NCBI RefSeq assembly: GCF_009768975.1
Contig: NZ_CP035733.1
Span: forward strand, 868,001 to 932,000
Length of the DNA: 64,000 nt
From: Sphingorhabdus lacus
GTDB taxonomy: Bacteria; Pseudomonadota; Alphaproteobacteria; Sphingomonadales; Sphingomonadaceae
Reading direction: 5' to 3'
Shown in pieces: positions 49,642 to 57,404 of this stretch. A program made the position numbers and the translations under genes. Each line of letters opens with the position of its first letter. Positions within the stretch are counted from its first letter, which is position 1. Under the pieces are notes generated by a model. It had not been told where the DNA came from and did no database searches. It was given only the letters and a program-made list of their open reading frames with translations.

Positions 49642-49703
49642 CCAACTTCTCCCCAAGAAATAATGGCAGTTGAGGGGCCTAAAGCAAACGCATCTGGCGT
49701 TTC

Positions 49704-49747
49704 GGCGCCTTTTGTCGGACATGGAACATAGCCTGAAAAGGGGCGCC
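49704..49747 (+). promoter_or_regulatory. Long hairpin in the gltA leader
   Basis: GGCGCCTTTT (49704-49713) pairs with AAAAGGGGCGCC (49736-49747) with two extra G, loop about 22 bases. It lies between the candidate promoter and the ATG at 49781. It could be a regulatory or stabilising leader structure; no known element was recognised. Confidence 0.45.
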
Positions 49748-49780
49748 CAATTATCGGGTTCGAAGTTATGGAGTGTAAAA

Positions 49781-51067
49781 ATGGCGGAAAATAATGCAAC
49801 GCTGACAATCGGAGATACCAGCTACGATTTGCCAATCATGAAGGGCAATGAAGGCCCCGATGTTTTGGATATCCGTAAATTATATGGCGCATCCGACCAT
49901 TTCACGTTCGACCCGGGTTTCACCTCTACCGCCAGTTGCGAGTCGGCCCTGACATTCATTGACGGCGATGAAGGTATCCTTCTCCATCGTGGCTATTCCA
50001 TCGAAGAACTCTCCGAAAAGTCGAGCTTCATGGAAGTGTCCTATTTGCTGCTCAACGGCGAATTGCCGTCGAAGACGCAGTTGGTCGAGTTCAGCCAGAC
50101 AATTTCGCGGCACACCATGCTACACGAACAGCTGGCGACCTTTTATCGTGGCTTCCGCCGCGATGCGCATCCCATGGCGATCATGTGCGGCGTCGTGGGG
50201 GCTCTTTCCGCATTCTATCACGACTCCACAGACATCAGCGATCCGACCCACCGGATGATTTCCAGCCATCGGTTGATCGCCAAGATGCCGACCATTGCAG
50301 CGATGGCGTATAAATATTCGATCGGGCAGCCCTTCTTGTACCCCGACAACAGCCTGTCCTACACTGGAAACTTCCTGCGCATGACGTTCGGCGTCCCGGC
50401 TGAGCCTTATGTGGTAAATCCCGTCATTGAACGTGCGATGGATCGCATTTTCATCCTGCATGCGGATCACGAACAAAATGCCTCGACATCGACCGTGCGT
50501 CTCGCCGGTTCATCGGGGGCCAACCCCTTTGCATGTATTGCAGCCGGCATTGCCTGCCTGTGGGGTCCGGCGCATGGCGGTGCCAATGAAGCGGCGCTCA
50601 ACATGCTTCGCGAAATCGGCACGCCCGACAAAATCCCGCACTATATTGAGCGCGCAAAGGACAAGAATGATCCGTTCCGCCTGATGGGCTTTGGACATCG
50701 TGTTTACAAAAACTACGACCCTCGCGCTTCTGTGATGCAAAAGACGGTTCGTGAAGTTTTGAGCGAACTGAAGGTCAACGATCCAATATTTGATGTGGCC
50801 CTCCAGTTGGAGGACATGGCGTTGAACGATCCTTATTTCATCGAAAAGAAGCTGTTCCCGAACGTCGACTTCTATTCAGGTATCATTCTTTCAGCCATCG
50901 GCTTCCCGACTGAAATGTTTACCGTGTTGTTCGCCCTGTCCCGGACCGTAGGCTGGGTTGCACAGTGGAACGAAATGATTTCGGACCCTGGCCAGAAGAT
51001 CGGCCGCCCGCGTCAGCTTTACACCGGCCCAAAGCATCGGCCCTACCCCGGATTTGACGAGCGTTAA
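49781..51067 (+). CDS. gltA: Citrate synthase
   Basis: 428 residues from the ATG at 49781 ([11 protein letters not shown]). Hexameric type II enzyme of the TCA cycle, joining oxaloacetate and acetyl-CoA. The catalytic histidines are in [15 protein letters not shown] and [13 protein letters not shown], and the aspartate in FPNVDFYSG. The family open frame extends upstream into the leader but without similarity. Long leader with a strong hairpin. Standard length. Confidence 0.96.
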
Positions 51068-51078
51068 TTGCTGTTGGA

Positions 51079-52410
51079 TTAGCTATTCGGAAGGCGGAGG
51101 GTGAAAATCGCACCTCCGTCTTCTGCATTTTCAACATGCAGTTCGCCGCCCATCGCACGGGCAAGTCGGCGGGAAATATACAGACCCAGGCCGCTACCGC
51201 CATCGCCGGACCGTCCCAGACGTTCGAATTTCTCGAATATCTTTTCCCGGTCGGCAGGGTCAATACCCTTACCTTGGTCACGCACCGAAATAACCGCCTC
51301 TGCGTCCACTGTGGCGATGTCGATAAAAATGTTCGTGCCGTCCGGTGAATAGCGAATGGCGTTATTGACCAAATTCAGAATGATCTGAAGCGTACGCCGG
51401 AACTCTGCCACCGCTGGTACCAGCATGTCTTCTGGCGGGGTGTGGACCGATATGCGGTGGTCGGCCGCCTTGAGTGCAAGCAACCCCGCCACGCGTCGCG
51501 CAACGTCACCCAGTTCGATATTGTCCCGCGCGGCTTTGAAGTCCGGACGTTCTACCGCCTCCAAATCACCCAGATCGTCAACTAGGGCCGACAAGTGGCG
51601 GGCAGCATTCGCAATATCACGCGCATATAGGGCATAATTCTCTCGGATTGGGCCTTGCAATTCACTGCCTATGGTTTCGGCATTGGCAATGATGCGCCCC
51701 AAAGGCTGACGCAGCACAGGAGCCAGATTTTTCCCGAATAGTGCGCCTGCTGCTACGCTTTCCTTCGGCGCAGCAATAGGAGTGCTTGGTTCTTCGACCC
51801 GTTCAAACTGCAGTTCAAATCCGTTCGCAACGGATCCGCCGTTGACATGGAAAACCAAGCCATCGCTCACACGCGTCAAACTACATGACGTAACCGCAAT
51901 GCTGGCGGACATTGACGATAGCAATGAATCCAGAGCGGCCCCGCCCTCAAATACCGACGCTAACAACGCCCTGCCATCACGGCCAAAATCGGACGGCATC
52001 AGGCCGTGGGACGCGTCCCCGGTCGCCCTGACCAGTCGACCGACCGGATCAAACTTCATCACATTTTCGTGGACAATTGGGGCCGGTGCACTGGTTGAGC
52101 CGGTGCGCCGGACCTCGGGCAACACGCGCCAGCTTATAATAGAGAGCCTTGCCTTATCCGGTGTAGGATCGATCTCGATCCAGAGCTCCAGATGTTCGGC
52201 ATCGTCAGCCACGCGAACCGCGCGCGATAATTTCATCTGCAGCTTTATCGCCAATAACGCCAACGTCTTGATTGCCGGAACAGCCAGCAATTCATTCTTG
52301 CGTCCCCCGGCGCGCTCGTTGAGACGCACCAGTGCATCGTCGGCCGAAACTAGACGGCCGTCAGCATCTACTTCACCCGAAATGGGATTAATAAGCTGCG
52401 CACCACTCAT
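51079..52410 (-). CDS. Histidine-kinase-like protein lacking the phospho-acceptor histidine
   Basis: 443 residues from the ATG at 52410, overlapping the previous stop as ATGA. The first 230 residues look like a sensor region without membrane helices. The dimerisation helix reads KNLAPVLRQPLGRIIANAETI, where ordinary kinases have HELRTPLN; no histidine is there. The ATP-binding half is intact: N-box ILNLVNNAIRYS, G1 VRDQGKGIDP, F and G2 GGSGLGLYISRRLARAMGG. It could bind ATP yet not autophosphorylate in the normal way. Genes upstream on this strand belong to the same cluster. Confidence 0.82.
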   Translation of the reverse strand: MSGAQLINPISGEVDADGRLVSADDALVRLNERAGGRKNELLAVPAIKTLALLAIKLQMKLSRAVRVADDAEHLELWIEIDPTPDKARLSIISWRVLPEVRRTGSTSAPAPIVHENVMKFDPVGRLVRATGDASHGLMPSDFGRDGRALLASVFEGGAALDSLLSSMSASIAVTSCSLTRVSDGLVFHVNGGSVANGFELQFERVEEPSTPIAAPKESVAAGALFGKNLAPVLRQPLGRIIANAETIGSELQGPIRENYALYARDIANAARHLSALVDDLGDLEAVERPDFKAARDNIELGDVARRVAGLLALKAADHRISVHTPPEDMLVPAVAEFRRTLQIILNLVNNAIRYSPDGTNIFIDIATVDAEAVISVRDQGKGIDPADREKIFEKFERLGRSGDGGSGLGLYISRRLARAMGGELHVENAEDGGAIFTLRLPNS

Positions 52411-53378
52411 GGCAGTTTTCCGCCCGACAGAAACTGCGCGCGCGCAGATGCCCAATATCCGATCTGGGTTAAGGCTTCATCAGCTTGCAGATTTGCGTAG
52501 CCGTACTCGAATATTCCCGCCTCTCTGGGTGTGATCAGGTCGCCACGGAAAAGAAAGATGTTCTTGAGCGCATGTGTCTTGGACACGCCGCACGCTGCCA
52601 GCATGACGGCATAGGGTGCCGACGATGACGCGTCGATGAGACGCAGAATATGGTCATGGTCGAGTTCCAGATCGGCAGAAAGCGCAGCCACATGCAAATG
52701 CAGACCATAAATCTCAGGATTCCCGACCAGCGTATGGGTCGGATCGTCCGAAAAGTGCACGATTTTTCGCGCTGCATCCTGTGCACGATCAGCTTCGCAA
52801 AAGCTGGAGAGAAGGGATTTTGCTGAAGCAATTATGGCGGGCTGCCGCGCGCCTTCAAATATTTCGATGGCAGCCACAATCTGCCAAGTTAGCTTATAGA
52901 GCAATTCGGACGTGAGACCCAGATAGGTATTCCCTGCCCCGCTCCGATGTAAGCTTTCTGCAGCCAATAAGGTTTGCGCAGCATCCGCCAACATCCCGTT
53001 TTGATGGTCAAGATATGCCGATGCCGACTTGACCTTATCTTGGGCGATACACGCGCCAAGACGGTCTTCAGCGACGCGCGCCAAGATAAAATCGATTAAA
53101 TCCGGTTCACGCAAAAATCCGGATTTGGATAATATGTCCCAAGTTAAGGGGAAATGCGGGTTGCGTTTCGACAAAAGCCGCGCTTCCAAATCGGAGACCA
53201 ACTGGATCAGCTTCGCCGAAACGGCGCTAATCGTTGCCTCAGTCGGCGGATTGACGGCGGTTGGGAAAATAACAGAAGCGATATCTGTACACAGAGCGTC
53301 GATGTCGTGCGCATGCTCGGCGCCGACTTTCATCAAAACATTAATATCATCGACACCGTGATCCAACGGAATTTCCAT
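52407..53378 (-). CDS. DUF2336-like helical protein
   Basis: 323 residues from the ATG at 53378 (MEIPLDHGVDDINVL). Helical, no signal peptide or membrane segment. FPLTWDILSKSGFLREPDLIDFILARVAEDRL resembles the DUF2336 repeat region of alphaproteobacterial proteins often found near histidine kinases. The C-terminus has HALKNIFLFRGDLITPREAG. It overlaps the kinase-like gene downstream and is 44 bp after the membrane protein gene. Family assignment is moderate; function unknown. Confidence 0.6.
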   Translation of the reverse strand: MEIPLDHGVDDINVLMKVGAEHAHDIDALCTDIASVIFPTAVNPPTEATISAVSAKLIQLVSDLEARLLSKRNPHFPLTWDILSKSGFLREPDLIDFILARVAEDRLGACIAQDKVKSASAYLDHQNGMLADAAQTLLAAESLHRSGAGNTYLGLTSELLYKLTWQIVAAIEIFEGARQPAIIASAKSLLSSFCEADRAQDAARKIVHFSDDPTHTLVGNPEIYGLHLHVAALSADLELDHDHILRLIDASSSAPYAVMLAACGVSKTHALKNIFLFRGDLITPREAGIFEYGYANLQADEALTQIGYWASARAQFLSGGKLP

Positions 53379-53422
53379 GCTGAGAACAGCGAATAGCCTA
53401 TCAAATAAAGGTTTACACGGCT

Positions 53423-54649
53423 TTAAGGCTGTTTCTGAGCAGCAACCACGCGCCTGGCTAGATACTGTTCCGTCAAGAGAAGCGCAAGTTGCGCAAAAAC
53501 AATAATTTTTAGCCCAAACGCATATTCCGAGAAATAGGCTGACATCGCCATCCCAAGGACCAAGAGCGCCGGCGAGCATAAAAAGTTCGCAGTCCAACGT
53601 TTTGCGGGAATTGGCAGCGCCAATGCCGCCAATCCCAGCATGATGGTCGTGAATTCCACCGCATTTGACCCGACTGTAGCCTCGCTAAATGCCACATAAA
53701 GCGCGGATATAATTGAAACCACCCAGAAAACCGTGCCATGGATAGGACTCCGTCCTCTATGGGACTTGATGTCAATCAACGTCTGGATCTGGTTCAGCAT
53801 CAGACCCAAGAAAATGAAAAGCAATGCGAATACGGCCTGATTCACGGCCGTAAGAACCAGGCTCAAGCCAACGGCAACTGCGGCCGGAAGATGTGCAAAT
53901 TTGGAAAAACTGGCATTGCCCCAAGCAACGGGCGCAAGCCGCTCCGCAATGGCGCCAAAAATATTCCGCTCGATCCACCCTTTCACGACGTCGACCCGTG
54001 CCTGCATTTTTTTCGCGCCAATAGCTTGAGCGTCTGCGGCGCTGCTTATCTTCGCGATTTCAGCATTTTGAATGGCGCTCTGTGGCAGTGGATGGAATGG
54101 CGTACCGATCTGGATGGCAAAGCGGAGCAAAGTTGATGCTATGCTCCATCCTTCAGGAATGTCGTGAATCGACCCCAGCTTTCCCGTTTCGAGCAGCGTA
54201 AATCCTGCCCAGCATCGCGTGAGATCAATCCGCTCGAAATCGGCACTTTCATTTCCAATATCGCAGGTCGCTACGCAAGGCGTTCCCGACCCGATCAGCC
54301 GATGCAAAATGTCTTCAGAAAAATACAGGCCTTCGGCGAGGATAACGAGGCGGGATTTAAGATCGCTGGACTTCTGCAGATCCTCAAGCGTCCGCACAAA
54401 GTGGATGGTAAGCCCAAAGCGTTCGCCAGCATCTGACATTTTGAGCAGAGCGCCGGACACGTTGTCCACTTCAACGAAGCAGGTTGTAATTCCGGACTTT
54501 TGGAGAGCAGCCAGCTGCCATTCCAGAACCGACTGGCCAGCAATTGTAAGAGATTGCGACTGATGCTCAGCAAAATTGGGAGTTTCTATTGTAGAAACAA
54601 CGGACAAAAGTGCCGCTGGTGGACCTTGGATATTGTCGGCAGATAACAT
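53423..54649 (-). CDS. Membrane protein with a nucleotidyltransferase-like N-terminal domain
   Basis: 408 residues. The first 190 have the pattern of a sugar/alcohol phosphate nucleotidyltransferase: LLSVVST, then LTIAGQSVLEWQLAALQKSGITTCFV and RLVILAEGLYFSEDILHRL, but without the G.GTR loop. Residues about 245-400 hold five or six membrane helices. The layout recalls fused cytidylyltransferase/CDP-alcohol phosphotransferase proteins, but the CDP-alcohol motif (DG..AR..G...D...D) is not present. Function unknown. Same strand and spacing as its neighbours. Confidence 0.55.
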   Translation of the reverse strand: MLSADNIQGPPAALLSVVSTIETPNFAEHQSQSLTIAGQSVLEWQLAALQKSGITTCFVEVDNVSGALLKMSDAGERFGLTIHFVRTLEDLQKSSDLKSRLVILAEGLYFSEDILHRLIGSGTPCVATCDIGNESADFERIDLTRCWAGFTLLETGKLGSIHDIPEGWSIASTLLRFAIQIGTPFHPLPQSAIQNAEIAKISSAADAQAIGAKKMQARVDVVKGWIERNIFGAIAERLAPVAWGNASFSKFAHLPAAVAVGLSLVLTAVNQAVFALLFIFLGLMLNQIQTLIDIKSHRGRSPIHGTVFWVVSIISALYVAFSEATVGSNAVEFTTIMLGLAALALPIPAKRWTANFLCSPALLVLGMAMSAYFSEYAFGLKIIVFAQLALLLTEQYLARRVVAAQKQP

Positions 54650-54708
54650 CCGCCCGATATGGACGATATTACCTCATTTCCAACTATTTTGTTGGCATCG
54701 TCCCTGTT

Positions 54709-55014
54709 CTAGGAAATTTCGTGCGTTTCGATTTCGATAATTGCGGCCTCGATGTCACGAATTACAACCGGGTCACCGGGTGCTCCGACGCTGGCCATAT
54801 CTGCCAGTTCCATGAGGCGTGTTGCCCCAAAACTTGCGGCGAGACCCTTTAATCGCCAGCTTGTGTACTGCCAATTGGCGTCGCAACGCGACCGGGAAAG
54901 CAAGCTTAATTGCCGGCGGGCACTCTCTACGAAAGAATGGCGCAACTCCGCCATCAAGGCATAATCATCGCCTGAAGCGGCTTTTATCGCTGTGTCAAAA
55001 GAGCCATAATCCAT
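54709..55014 (-). CDS. Hpt-like protein with tryptophan in place of the phospho-histidine
   Basis: 101 residues from the ATG at 55014; ATG at 55020 and GTG at 55038 are also in frame, but a GGA six bases before 55014 favours it. A four-helix Hpt protein: helix B reads QYTSWRLKGLAASFGATRLMELAD, matching AH.LKG.A...GA with W where the phosphorylated histidine belongs (codon TGG). First gene of the minus-strand cluster; divergent from the coiled-coil gene across 77 bp. Confidence 0.65.
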   Translation of the reverse strand: MDYGSFDTAIKAASGDDYALMAELRHSFVESARRQLSLLSRSRCDANWQYTSWRLKGLAASFGATRLMELADMASVGAPGDPVVIRDIEAAIIEIETHEIS

Positions 55015-55091
55015 AGACATTCCACAGTCATACGCCACTTAGTGTTAAGTTTGCGTTTCCCCTGTGGATAAAATATGGTTAACAAAGTTCT
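55015..55091. promoter_or_regulatory. Divergent control region of the 51-57 kb cluster
   Basis: 77 bp between the Hpt-like and coiled-coil genes. It is AT-rich (AAAATATGG, GTTAACAAAG) and must hold promoters for both directions. I do not see a clear repeat or operator. No strong Shine-Dalgarno precedes the coiled-coil ATG at 55092. Confidence 0.5.
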
Positions 55092-57404
55092 ATGACTGCA
55101 CGCTCTAAAATTGTTGGCCTAACTCGGCAGATTGAAAATGGTTCCGTTGACGAAATGGAAATCCATATCTCTGAACATGATTTGGTGTCCGGCGCGGAAC
55201 CATCTCCCATGCCGGACGCGAGTCCCGATTATGATCAGCCGGAGGATGTAGCTGAAGAATATTCAGAAAAATCTGTCCGTTGGACGAGCTATCTTTTACC
55301 TTTTGCGATCGTCACGCTGACGATCGGTTGGACCGCCTATTTTGTGTGGACCTATCTACCGCTGATCAAGGACGGGCTCAAGGGTGAGTATCTGATCACC
55401 CTGATCAGCATCTGGGCTACTCCTGCTATGTTTCTGGCAATTTTATGGCTCTTGGTTATGCGATCCAGTCGTGCTGAAGCGTTCAGGTTTCGCGATGTAG
55501 CGCTCTCGCTGCGCAAGGAAAGCGAAGCGCTCGAAATGCGCATGCGCACGGTGAATGAAGAAATATCCATGGCGCGCAGCTTTCTGGCCCAGAATGCTCG
55601 GGAACTGGAAACAGTCGGAAAGCAATCTTCACAAAGTTTGATGGAAGCCGCGCAAATTTTGACCGCTGCATTGTTGGACAGCGATGAAAAAGCAAAAACG
55701 CTCGAAACGGTAAGCAATGCCGCCACCACCAATCTAGAACAACTCCGCAAGCATTTGCCCGTCGTAACTAGCGCTGCCAAAGACGTTACAAACCAAATTG
55801 GTAGCGCAGGGAATAATGCGCAATTGCAGATAAAGTCGTTGATTGCCGGACTTGCCCGTATTGGCGAGGTTGGAACGTCGACCCGTGCCTATATTGATGA
55901 CGTCGGCAATCGCGCCGATGCGGTCTCTGAACAGCTTGGAAATATTTCCCGCGAAACCGCCGATTCATTGAATGAAGCAAGTTTGCTTGCCGAAAAGCGT
56001 GCGTCGGCCGCAGCGAAGCTTCTCGATGTAGCGGCGCAGAATATGTCTTCGCAGGTCGGCAATGTGACGTCCGAGCTTAGCCAACTCCTTTCGGACAACA
56101 GAGCAAAGATTGAAGAAAATGTCGGCTTGCTGAAAAAAGCCATGGGTGAAATTGCGCTGCAATCGCAGGAAGAGAAAAACCGCATTGCGTCGATCATTGG
56201 TGATATCGAGAACCACCTGAGCGCCAGCGCGGCTACGATATCGGAAATCGACAAGGCCGCAACCGATCAGACAGCCAAGCTCGCTTTCGCCGTTTCCGCA
56301 CTTGGCGTGAGTGCGAAAGAGGTGAATTCCGAATTGGACGGCAGCCATAGCCGCACCGAGCAACTGCTGGAGAGAGCTGACGGTCTATTGTCATCGCTCA
56401 ACAGGATCAACGCCGAGATCGCCGAGAACATCCCTGCATCTATCGGGCAAGTTGGATTGCAGATTTCCGGAACAACGGATCAGCTAGCGTCAGCGACGGG
56501 GAGTGCCCGTGATCTGAACGCGCAAAGCAGCGAATTGCTGAAAGTCGCGTCTTCACTGAGTGCTTTGATTGATGAGCAAAGCGCAAAAATTGGCATAATC
56601 ATGCAGGACAGCGATGAGCATTTCGCCGCGCGTCATGAGCAAGCCGACGCCCTTTCGGCAACTTTGAACGAAACCCGCACGCTAATTGAGTCGATCACGC
56701 AAGTGACCGAAGGTGCGCTGGTATCGTCTCTCTTGCGCGTTCGGGAAGTAACCGAAGGCGCGGTGCAGGACAGCCGCAAGATCGTGGAGAATGAACTCAC
56801 GCATGTGGCGGACCGGTTGGCGGATCAGAACCGCATTGCACTTGAAGGCGCCGTCGAGAACCAATTGAAGGCAATGAACGAACAAGTTCAAAATGCCATT
56901 GAACGCAATATCAGCCTGTCTGAAAGCTCAACAGCGCAACTGACAACGCAGTTGAAGGAATTGGATGAACTCGCCGATAATCTTGAAAAGCGGATTGCCG
57001 AAAGCCGGAACAGCTTTGACGGTATCGATGATGACAGCTTCGCACGGCGGATGGTCCTGCTCACCGAATCGTTGAACTCCACGTCAATCGATGTGGCAAA
57101 GATACTCTCGAACGAAGTCACCGACACCGCATGGGCAGCTTATCTGAAGGGCGACCGCGGGGTCTTCACTCGCCGTGCCGTGCGCCTCCTTGATGCAGGC
57201 GAGTCACGCGCGATCGCGACGCATTACGGTCAAGACGCGGAATTCCGTGAACATGTGAACCGCTACATTCATGACTTTGAGGCGATGATGCGGATTTTGC
57301 TGAGCACACGTGATGGCAACGCGATTTGCGTTACACTCCTGTCATCCGACGTCGGCAAATTGTACGTAGCTTTGGCCCAAGCAATTGAGCGGCTTCGGAA
57401 CTAG
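55092..57404 (+). CDS. Large membrane-anchored coiled-coil protein
   Basis: 770 residues. N-terminal 60 acidic residues, two membrane helices (about 66-90 and 98-123; LLPFAIVTLTIGWTAYFVW and LITLISIWATPAMFLAILW), then about 550 residues of near-continuous coiled coil rich in A, S, E, Q with heptads as in chemotaxis receptors, but without the MCP hairpin tip motif and without a HAMP or sensor domain. A conserved-looking globular end has AYLKGDRGVFTRRAVRLLDAGESRAIATHYG. No enzyme motif. It may be a structural or signalling rod on the cytoplasmic side. It is tail-to-tail with DUF1467. Confidence 0.7.
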   Translation: MTARSKIVGLTRQIENGSVDEMEIHISEHDLVSGAEPSPMPDASPDYDQPEDVAEEYSEKSVRWTSYLLPFAIVTLTIGWTAYFVWTYLPLIKDGLKGEYLITLISIWATPAMFLAILWLLVMRSSRAEAFRFRDVALSLRKESEALEMRMRTVNEEISMARSFLAQNARELETVGKQSSQSLMEAAQILTAALLDSDEKAKTLETVSNAATTNLEQLRKHLPVVTSAAKDVTNQIGSAGNNAQLQIKSLIAGLARIGEVGTSTRAYIDDVGNRADAVSEQLGNISRETADSLNEASLLAEKRASAAAKLLDVAAQNMSSQVGNVTSELSQLLSDNRAKIEENVGLLKKAMGEIALQSQEEKNRIASIIGDIENHLSASAATISEIDKAATDQTAKLAFAVSALGVSAKEVNSELDGSHSRTEQLLERADGLLSSLNRINAEIAENIPASIGQVGLQISGTTDQLASATGSARDLNAQSSELLKVASSLSALIDEQSAKIGIIMQDSDEHFAARHEQADALSATLNETRTLIESITQVTEGALVSSLLRVREVTEGAVQDSRKIVENELTHVADRLADQNRIALEGAVENQLKAMNEQVQNAIERNISLSESSTAQLTTQLKELDELADNLEKRIAESRNSFDGIDDDSFARRMVLLTESLNSTSIDVAKILSNEVTDTAWAAYLKGDRGVFTRRAVRLLDAGESRAIATHYGQDAEFREHVNRYIHDFEAMMRILLSTRDGNAICVTLLSSDVGKLYVALAQAIERLRN

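Follow-up and report, generated by a model that had tools for sequence, protein, structure and literature searches.

A sphingomonad phosphorelay cluster whose kinase and Hpt protein both lack the phospho-accepting histidine: a candidate ATP-gated scaffold

What becomes of a phosphorelay when the histidines that carry its phosphoryl group are gone, and the proteins stay? This question is raised by five neighbouring genes in a 64,000-nucleotide stretch of the Sphingorhabdus lacus genome (contig NZ_CP035733.1, positions 868,001 to 932,000; hereafter the window), which is a single contig of 3.46 Mb. A first-pass annotation had described four close minus-strand genes for kinase-like, DUF2336-like, nucleotidyltransferase-like membrane and Hpt-like proteins, divergent from a gene for a 770-residue membrane coiled-coil protein, and had found no histidine at either phosphotransfer site. 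We found that a whole clade of orthologues lacks the histidines and that the gene neighbourhood recurs, so the observation is more than chance. With a probability of roughly 0.5, we propose that a phosphorelay was converted into an ATP-gated scaffold that would work without phosphotransfer, probably at the cell pole. All five genes are where they had been placed, and the overlap of 4 bp and the gaps of 44 bp (DUF2336-like to membrane protein) and 59 bp (membrane protein to hpt) are right; a further 71 bp separate hpt from the coiled-coil gene. Read along the minus strand, the order is Hpt-like, membrane protein, DUF2336-like and kinase-like, towards gltA and away from the divergent coiled-coil gene:

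51079-52410, minus strand: pseudo-histidine kinase, 443 amino acids; degenerate N-terminal PAS-like region, DHp domain without histidine, complete HATPase domain; falls in the single histidine-less clade
52407-53378, minus strand: DUF2336-like protein, 323 amino acids; overlaps the kinase gene by 4 bp
53423-54649, minus strand: putative pseudo-enzyme, 408 amino acids; IPCT-DIPPS fold with a nucleotidyltransferase domain and a CDP-alcohol phosphotransferase membrane domain, catalytic signature absent
54709-55020, minus strand: pseudo-Hpt protein, 103 amino acids; W55 (54856-54858) at the phosphohistidine position, invariant R56 adjoining
55092-57404, plus strand: TipN-family membrane coiled-coil protein, 770 amino acids; hydrophobic segments 68-86 and 100-125, coiled coil, conserved C-terminal domain

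Loss of both histidines

The H-box of the window kinase reads APVLRQPLGRII, with Pro 231 (codon 51718-51720) in place of the histidine. As the first-pass annotation had stated, the ATP-binding domain is nevertheless complete: HATPase_c was matched at an E-value of 2.5e-28 (HisKA at 1.2e-4, below the cut-off), and PF02518 by 37/37 kinases of our alignment. Among 53 kinases compared, a set that excludes the far paralogue G000b and also G099 (which is left out of the kinase tree as well), the H-box histidine is missing in 43 and present in 10. The Glu that follows it is absent from all 43 histidine-less kinases, and the ATP-site residues of the N-box, D-box, G1 and G2 (Asn, Asp, Gly) are present in 43/43. 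These proteins share a mean pairwise identity of 0.58 over the CA domain and 0.54 over DHp, against 0.28 over the N-terminal part. Pro takes the site in 20/43; R, A, K, E, Q and others occupy the rest, and Tyr does not occur.

The Hpt protein of the window carries SWRLKG where AH.LKG had been expected, and Trp 55 (codon 54856-54858) indeed occupies the phosphohistidine position. Its match to the Pfam Hpt family (E 0.022) fell below the cut-off, and 13/34 members of the Hpt alignment matched PF01627 at E <= 0.01. The structure model (predicted local distance difference test, pLDDT, 91.9) resembled solved Hpt proteins in Foldseek with a probability of 1.00, a best TMq of 0.72 and E-values of 0.038 or worse; no Hpt was among the matches when PDB sequences were searched with the Hpt profile. 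Histidine is missing in 37 of the 48 Hpt proteins compared and present in the other 11, while the Arg beside the lost site is invariant (34/34). The site holds W, L, M, A and others. Since the replacing residues vary in both kinase and Hpt, the site itself suggests no substitute acceptor. Of the five proteins, Hpt is the best kept against near relatives (64-82% identity). Its non-synonymous divergence (dN, 0.14-0.30) is low against the synonymous divergence (dS, 1.6-2.3 where finite), and thus the pseudo-Hpt is not decaying.

A second set, the named loci, comprises the best 80 of 420 coiled-coil matches and therefore favours the clade of the window; some of its stretches end at contig ends. 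Here the histidine was found in 0/62 kinases and 0/65 Hpt proteins. The named loci overlap the other genome set (some assemblies are the same), so the counts of the two are not additive. Loci of the other set were not a random choice either: ten were picked by DUF matches, others by the strength or spread of the coiled-coil match and later ones for divergence. L024 and L092 (duplicates) and L099 (10 bases) were dropped before the alignments and the counts over 45 loci.

Several relatives of the cluster keep the histidines. In the order's other families, a DUF2336-like gene precedes the kinase orthologue, which carries MSHELRTPLNAIIGF (L292-L296, 5/5), and the Hpt orthologue, divergent to the coiled-coil gene, has its histidine, as in AHKLKGAARSIGA (L300-L303 and L305, 5/5). 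The histidine-bearing orthologues thus keep the same neighbours, DUF2336 beside the kinase and Hpt beside the TipN-like gene. Within the family, the divergent genera G040, G056, G007 and G085 retain both histidines, and G052 has that of the kinase, with no Hpt found. The first-pass annotation had asked whether both residues are missing in all orthologues and had counted any histidine-bearing orthologue against its proposal; they are not missing in all. Because these orthologues occur in sister families and divergent genera, we read the absence as loss from a histidine-bearing ancestor and not as a false finding.

The two losses go together. In the 41 genomes for which both genes could be compared, the histidines are both missing in 35, both present in five and mixed in one, so that the states agree in 40/41. 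In the kinase tree, computed with the H-box columns removed, the histidine-less rows form one side of a branch (support 100/94); in the Hpt tree they do so at 97/98, though here the program cautioned that long branches meet and that the bootstrap had not settled. Each loss is therefore best read as one event. The earlier claim of two independent losses stands in that both residues are missing from the same cluster, but the losses are not scattered. Kinase G085 separates from the nine other near histidine-bearing rows (99/96) and is likely the sister of the histidine-less clade, provided that the tree is rooted within those nine.

Two other accounts were rejected. An absence confined to this genome, or produced by wrongly called frames, is ruled out by the comparison of kinases and Hpt proteins across loci. 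Retention of a histidine-bearing orthologue elsewhere in the window's genome was also rejected: the nearest other kinase, L299, has the histidine, no DUF2336 match within its 7 kb and a very long branch, and the genome has one Hpt match only.

The relatives also carry a receiver-domain protein of about 182 amino acids, which lies beside 8/11 histidine-bearing Hpts (not in G085, G005 or G099) and occurs in G052 too; two such proteins matched PF00072 (E 6e-19 and 4.8e-17). We searched an order sample of 147 genomes (64 Sphingomonadaceae and 83 from other families) genome-wide. At E <= 1e-78 the receiver was found in 68/83 other-family genomes versus 1/64 family genomes (G040), and the other 63/64 gave no match at 1e-20. 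Among 30 chosen family genomes, only G007, G040, G052 and G056 had it. The DUF2336-kinase pair has flgL-like genes nearby in both outgroup loci that were read completely (L295, L296), and in G052 and G007 the modules are separated by flgK-like genes, all named by looking over the translations.

Together, the histidine-bearing relay parts in relatives, a single loss in each gene tree, and the retained ATP site and neighbours demonstrate that a histidine-bearing relay was converted.

Membrane partners, recurrence and control region

The nucleotidyltransferase-like membrane protein named by the first-pass annotation is present, but it is itself degenerate, and the receiver-domain gene is gone besides. 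It shares the two-domain membrane fold of the IPCT-DIPPS and AF2299 CDP-alcohol phosphotransferases; unlike them, it lacks the signature DxxDGxxAR...G...D, as do 48 others of the 53 proteins aligned. By its residues it is a predicted third pseudo-enzyme of the cluster. Four divergent relatives (G085, G003, G038, G113) keep the signature. In three of the four, G003, G038 and G113 (L364, L374, L375), the stretch covered around the coiled-coil gene contained no kinase or Hpt match. The membrane protein of the window is diverging quickly, its near relatives being 26-36% identical to it. Near the IPCT-DIPPS-like gene of G085 and G052 lies a gene (L360 4946-6418 and L362 9875-11350, respectively) for one and the same type of exported protein, which resembles, by eye, a Wzi-like capsule-assembly protein. 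The DUF2336-like protein of the window had no Pfam match; 14/32 members of its alignment matched DUF2336 (PF10098) at E <= 0.01 (best E 6.3e-39), and its gene also adjoins a histidine-bearing kinase gene in other families.

The coiled-coil protein had been pictured as an envelope rod. A membrane coiled-coil protein it is (hydropathy peaks at 68-86 and 100-125; coiled coil by sequence inspection), but it is better described as a TipN-family protein, given the shared C-terminal domain. A profile search with its relatives matched a protein named TipN of Caulobacter segnis at E 7.2e-21, a score that coiled coils can inflate. A profile limited to the C-terminal domain, leaving the coiled coil out, matched the very C-terminus of the same protein (E 2.4e-7 for 10^6 sequences; E 0.0022 with Sphingomonadaceae rows alone). 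This domain occurs in 103/289 genomes of our class sample and in 133/147 of the order sample. Caulobacter TipN, described in the excerpted source as a polar scaffold that helps to place polar organelles (PMC7083601), is alike in its two N-terminal hydrophobic segments, long coiled coil and C-terminal domain. Agrobacterium GPR, for which an extract of PMC8262873 describes two N-terminal transmembrane domains, is alike in architecture only (two N-terminal hydrophobic segments and a long coiled coil); our search gave no named GPR, and kinship in sequence was not confirmed.

Orthologues co-occur as a conserved neighbourhood, as had been anticipated. In a family sample of 149 genomes, the coiled-coil gene was found in 147. 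All four partners, in the same order and on the opposite strand, accompany it in 26/45 loci carrying it (the non-random set), and all five genes lie within the stretch in 50/80 named loci. Strong kinase matches (E <= 1e-128; for Hpt we used E <= 1e-27) were present in 57/64 family genomes of the order sample. In G091 the genes for membrane protein, DUF2336-like protein and kinase are separate from hpt and the coiled-coil gene; the modules are unlinked, yet both are present. The same holds for G042, where no DUF match was found and the membrane-protein and kinase genes lie apart from hpt and the coiled-coil gene. We count both genomes in favour of the scaffold proposal. In L060, from the same-genus genome G137, the hpt, DUF2336 and kinase frames are interrupted and the coiled-coil and membrane-protein genes intact, owing either to recent decay or to assembly errors. 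Around the TipN-like gene of 20 genomes from the class search, the cluster was not found: there were 0 Hpt matches and, in four genomes, single matches of one kind (L210, membrane protein, E 0.011; L213, DUF2336, 2.9e-5; L224, kinase, 7.8e-6; L227, kinase, 1.2e-37), though distant forms could have escaped profiles built from Sphingomonadaceae.

The citrate synthase gene gltA (49670-51067, plus strand) is convergent with the pseudo-kinase gene, 11 bp apart; in most of the family loci read it lies next to the cluster or to the coiled-coil gene. The Caulobacter citrate synthase gene citA emerged from a cell-cycle screen with tipN cpdR mutants (PMC7083601, in the portion available), but the synteny of gltA seen here may be incidental. 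An Rfam search of the window gave no match.

Upstream of hpt we found two elements that resemble TTAA-N7-TTAA, which we take to be the CtrA site consensus:

55044-55059, minus strand: CtrA-like element GAAAC-N6-TTAAC, 24-39 bp before the hpt start codon; two mismatches; placed by eye where other loci have theirs
55068-55082, minus strand: second CtrA-like element TTAACCATATTTTAT; one mismatch; the window's best-scoring site, at this position in one genome

In 94/95 histidine-less loci a site within two mismatches is present in the 110 bp ahead of the hpt start (loci having <150 bases upstream were left out, as were those whose last 60 bases repeated another's), compared with 4/46 upstream of gltA, 5/38 of comEC and 2/17 of rnj. 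Among the matches listed, the element starts 38-41 bp before the start codon in 39/45 loci. A rule of thumb was used to set the hpt starts, and the control distances are less exact because control starts are those of the longest open reading frames. From composition shuffles, 32.9 of 99 would be expected to have a site with at most two mismatches in 220 bp, against 98 seen; the counts are not independent, since the loci are related. The element is thus a conserved candidate and a predicted CtrA-type binding site.

A scaffold without phosphotransfer and its rivals

How would such a cluster have arisen, and how might it work? The ancestor, as the relatives show, had a DUF2336 gene paired with a histidine-bearing kinase gene, and a histidine-bearing Hpt paired with the receiver, divergent from a TipN-like gene. 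Next, the two modules would have been brought together near gltA, along with an IPCT-DIPPS-like gene, and the receiver would have been lost, which is the state of G085. The loss of both histidines would have followed, accompanied in this lineage by that of the CDP-alcohol phosphotransferase signature, this order of steps being the probable one. Phosphotransfer chemistry would thus have disappeared in a single event close to the base of the main Sphingomonadaceae clade, with the proteins retained. ATP-dependent switching or scaffolding, as the first-pass annotation had suggested, is the likeliest mechanism on present sequence evidence, and since the ATP site looks intact we favour ATP gating over a pure dead-enzyme scaffold. 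The kinase-like dimer would still bind ATP, and ATP/ADP exchange would shift the CA domains relative to the histidine-less DHp bundle. A docked pseudo-Hpt and the DUF2336 protein would read this change of shape instead of a phosphoryl group. The degenerate membrane protein may anchor the complex, the TipN-family protein may position it, probably at the cell pole, and the hpt promoter may be under cell-cycle (CtrA-type) control. More tentatively, and with somewhat less confidence than in the ATP-gated scaffold as such, we suggest that a whole relay in one lineage became a catalysis-free polarity complex: kinase, phosphotransfer protein and lipid-type transferase would all be pseudo-enzymes that kept an ATP gate and their contacts, and signalling would proceed by ATP-driven shape change alone, under cell-cycle control.

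Several observations weigh against the proposed scaffold reading or narrow it. Values of dS are saturated in many pairs. Strong kinase matches without a strong Hpt match occur in 11/64 family genomes and the reverse in 1/64, so parts of the set are dispensable. The mixed genome, G099, has a histidine-bearing Hpt beside a 236-residue kinase remnant; its genus mate G005 has a histidine-bearing Hpt and no kinase match better than 1.5e-44. G085 keeps both histidines and lacks the receiver; thus receiver loss does not force histidine loss, and it seems to precede it. All eight aligned receivers (L300-L305, L362, L363) have Asn at the CheY phospho-Asp position, so that the ancestral relay may itself have been unusual, with what appears to be a pseudo-receiver already in ancestor-like genomes. 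The TipN match is remote (C. segnis as above; a Brevundimonas TipN fragment at E 0.099). As gltA and rnj flank the cluster in most loci, part of the conserved neighbourhood is general synteny. The promoter element is not clearly present in histidine-bearing loci (6/10 within two mismatches versus 3.6 expected).

Instead of forming a complex of their own, the pseudo-kinase and pseudo-Hpt could serve as decoys or sensors of other relays, binding the receivers or kinases of pathways that are still live (DivK, CckA/ChpT or others). In favour of this, the docking regions have been retained (DHp identity close to that of CA, and the invariant Arg beside the Hpt site), a promoter element of cell-cycle type fits, and extracts of two papers offer precedents, with DivL reading DivK~P (PMC4211667) and AHP6 competing with true Hpts (PMC7402358). 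However, the analysis yielded no partner, and G056 and G011 encode separate DivL-like proteins with MSYELRTPL (L328, L329), so that the pseudo-kinase is not the family's DivL. We regard this role as unlikely, while ranking it above the two that follow. Some GHKL-fold kinases phosphorylate Ser, Thr or other residues of a partner. A kinase that kept its catalysis and found such a target would account for ATP-site residues that are invariant in 43/43, but the Glu after the histidine is lost from just as many, and no new acceptor is evident: the invariant H272 is also found in 10/10 histidine-bearing relatives, which by eye have counterparts of Y259 and Y262. A redirected kinase is accordingly a still weaker candidate.

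Least supported is relaxed constraint, by which a useless relay on its way out would be kept by chance and synteny. The genomes without one or more of the genes, the interrupted frames of G137 and the fast divergence of the membrane protein speak for it. Against these stand retention across the family (57/64 strong kinase matches), the invariant ATP site, low dN in hpt and the conserved promoter element, and we consider such decay improbable. The ATP-gated scaffold remains our preferred reading.

Comparison with known systems

We found no published account of the cluster in the one open-access library searched, mostly through its listings, where nothing came up on DUF2336 with Alphaproteobacteria or on TipN with Sphingomonadales and histidine kinase; the pseudo-phosphorelay literature among the matches listed concerned plants. 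Living genomes span the state before the loss (sister families, G040, G056, G007), a likely intermediate (G085) and the state after it, and this range makes directly testable how a phosphorelay could work without phosphotransfer. The locus also points to an undescribed set of partners for TipN-type polarity proteins in sphingomonads.

The nearest precedent is Caulobacter DivL, which likewise has histidine kinase architecture with the phospho-histidine replaced and a non-kinase role in cell-fate signalling; in the sections available of PMC4211667, it shows no autokinase activity, binds ATP weakly (57 uM for TNP-ATP) and acts by binding a phosphorylated receiver. Unlike DivL, which has Tyr, the sphingomonad kinases are variable at the site, their ATP motifs are invariant and a pseudo-Hpt accompanies them. 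Arabidopsis AHP6 is, like the window protein, an Hpt protein without the phospho-histidine; it has Asn at the site and competes with live Hpts, as an excerpt of PMC7402358 has it. AHP6 is a plant protein, whereas here kinase and Hpt are both without histidine. Single pseudo-kinases such as DivL are known; in the present case the histidines of both a kinase and an Hpt protein disappeared from one lineage, and the two proteins persisted together across most of a family, with the ATP site unaltered.

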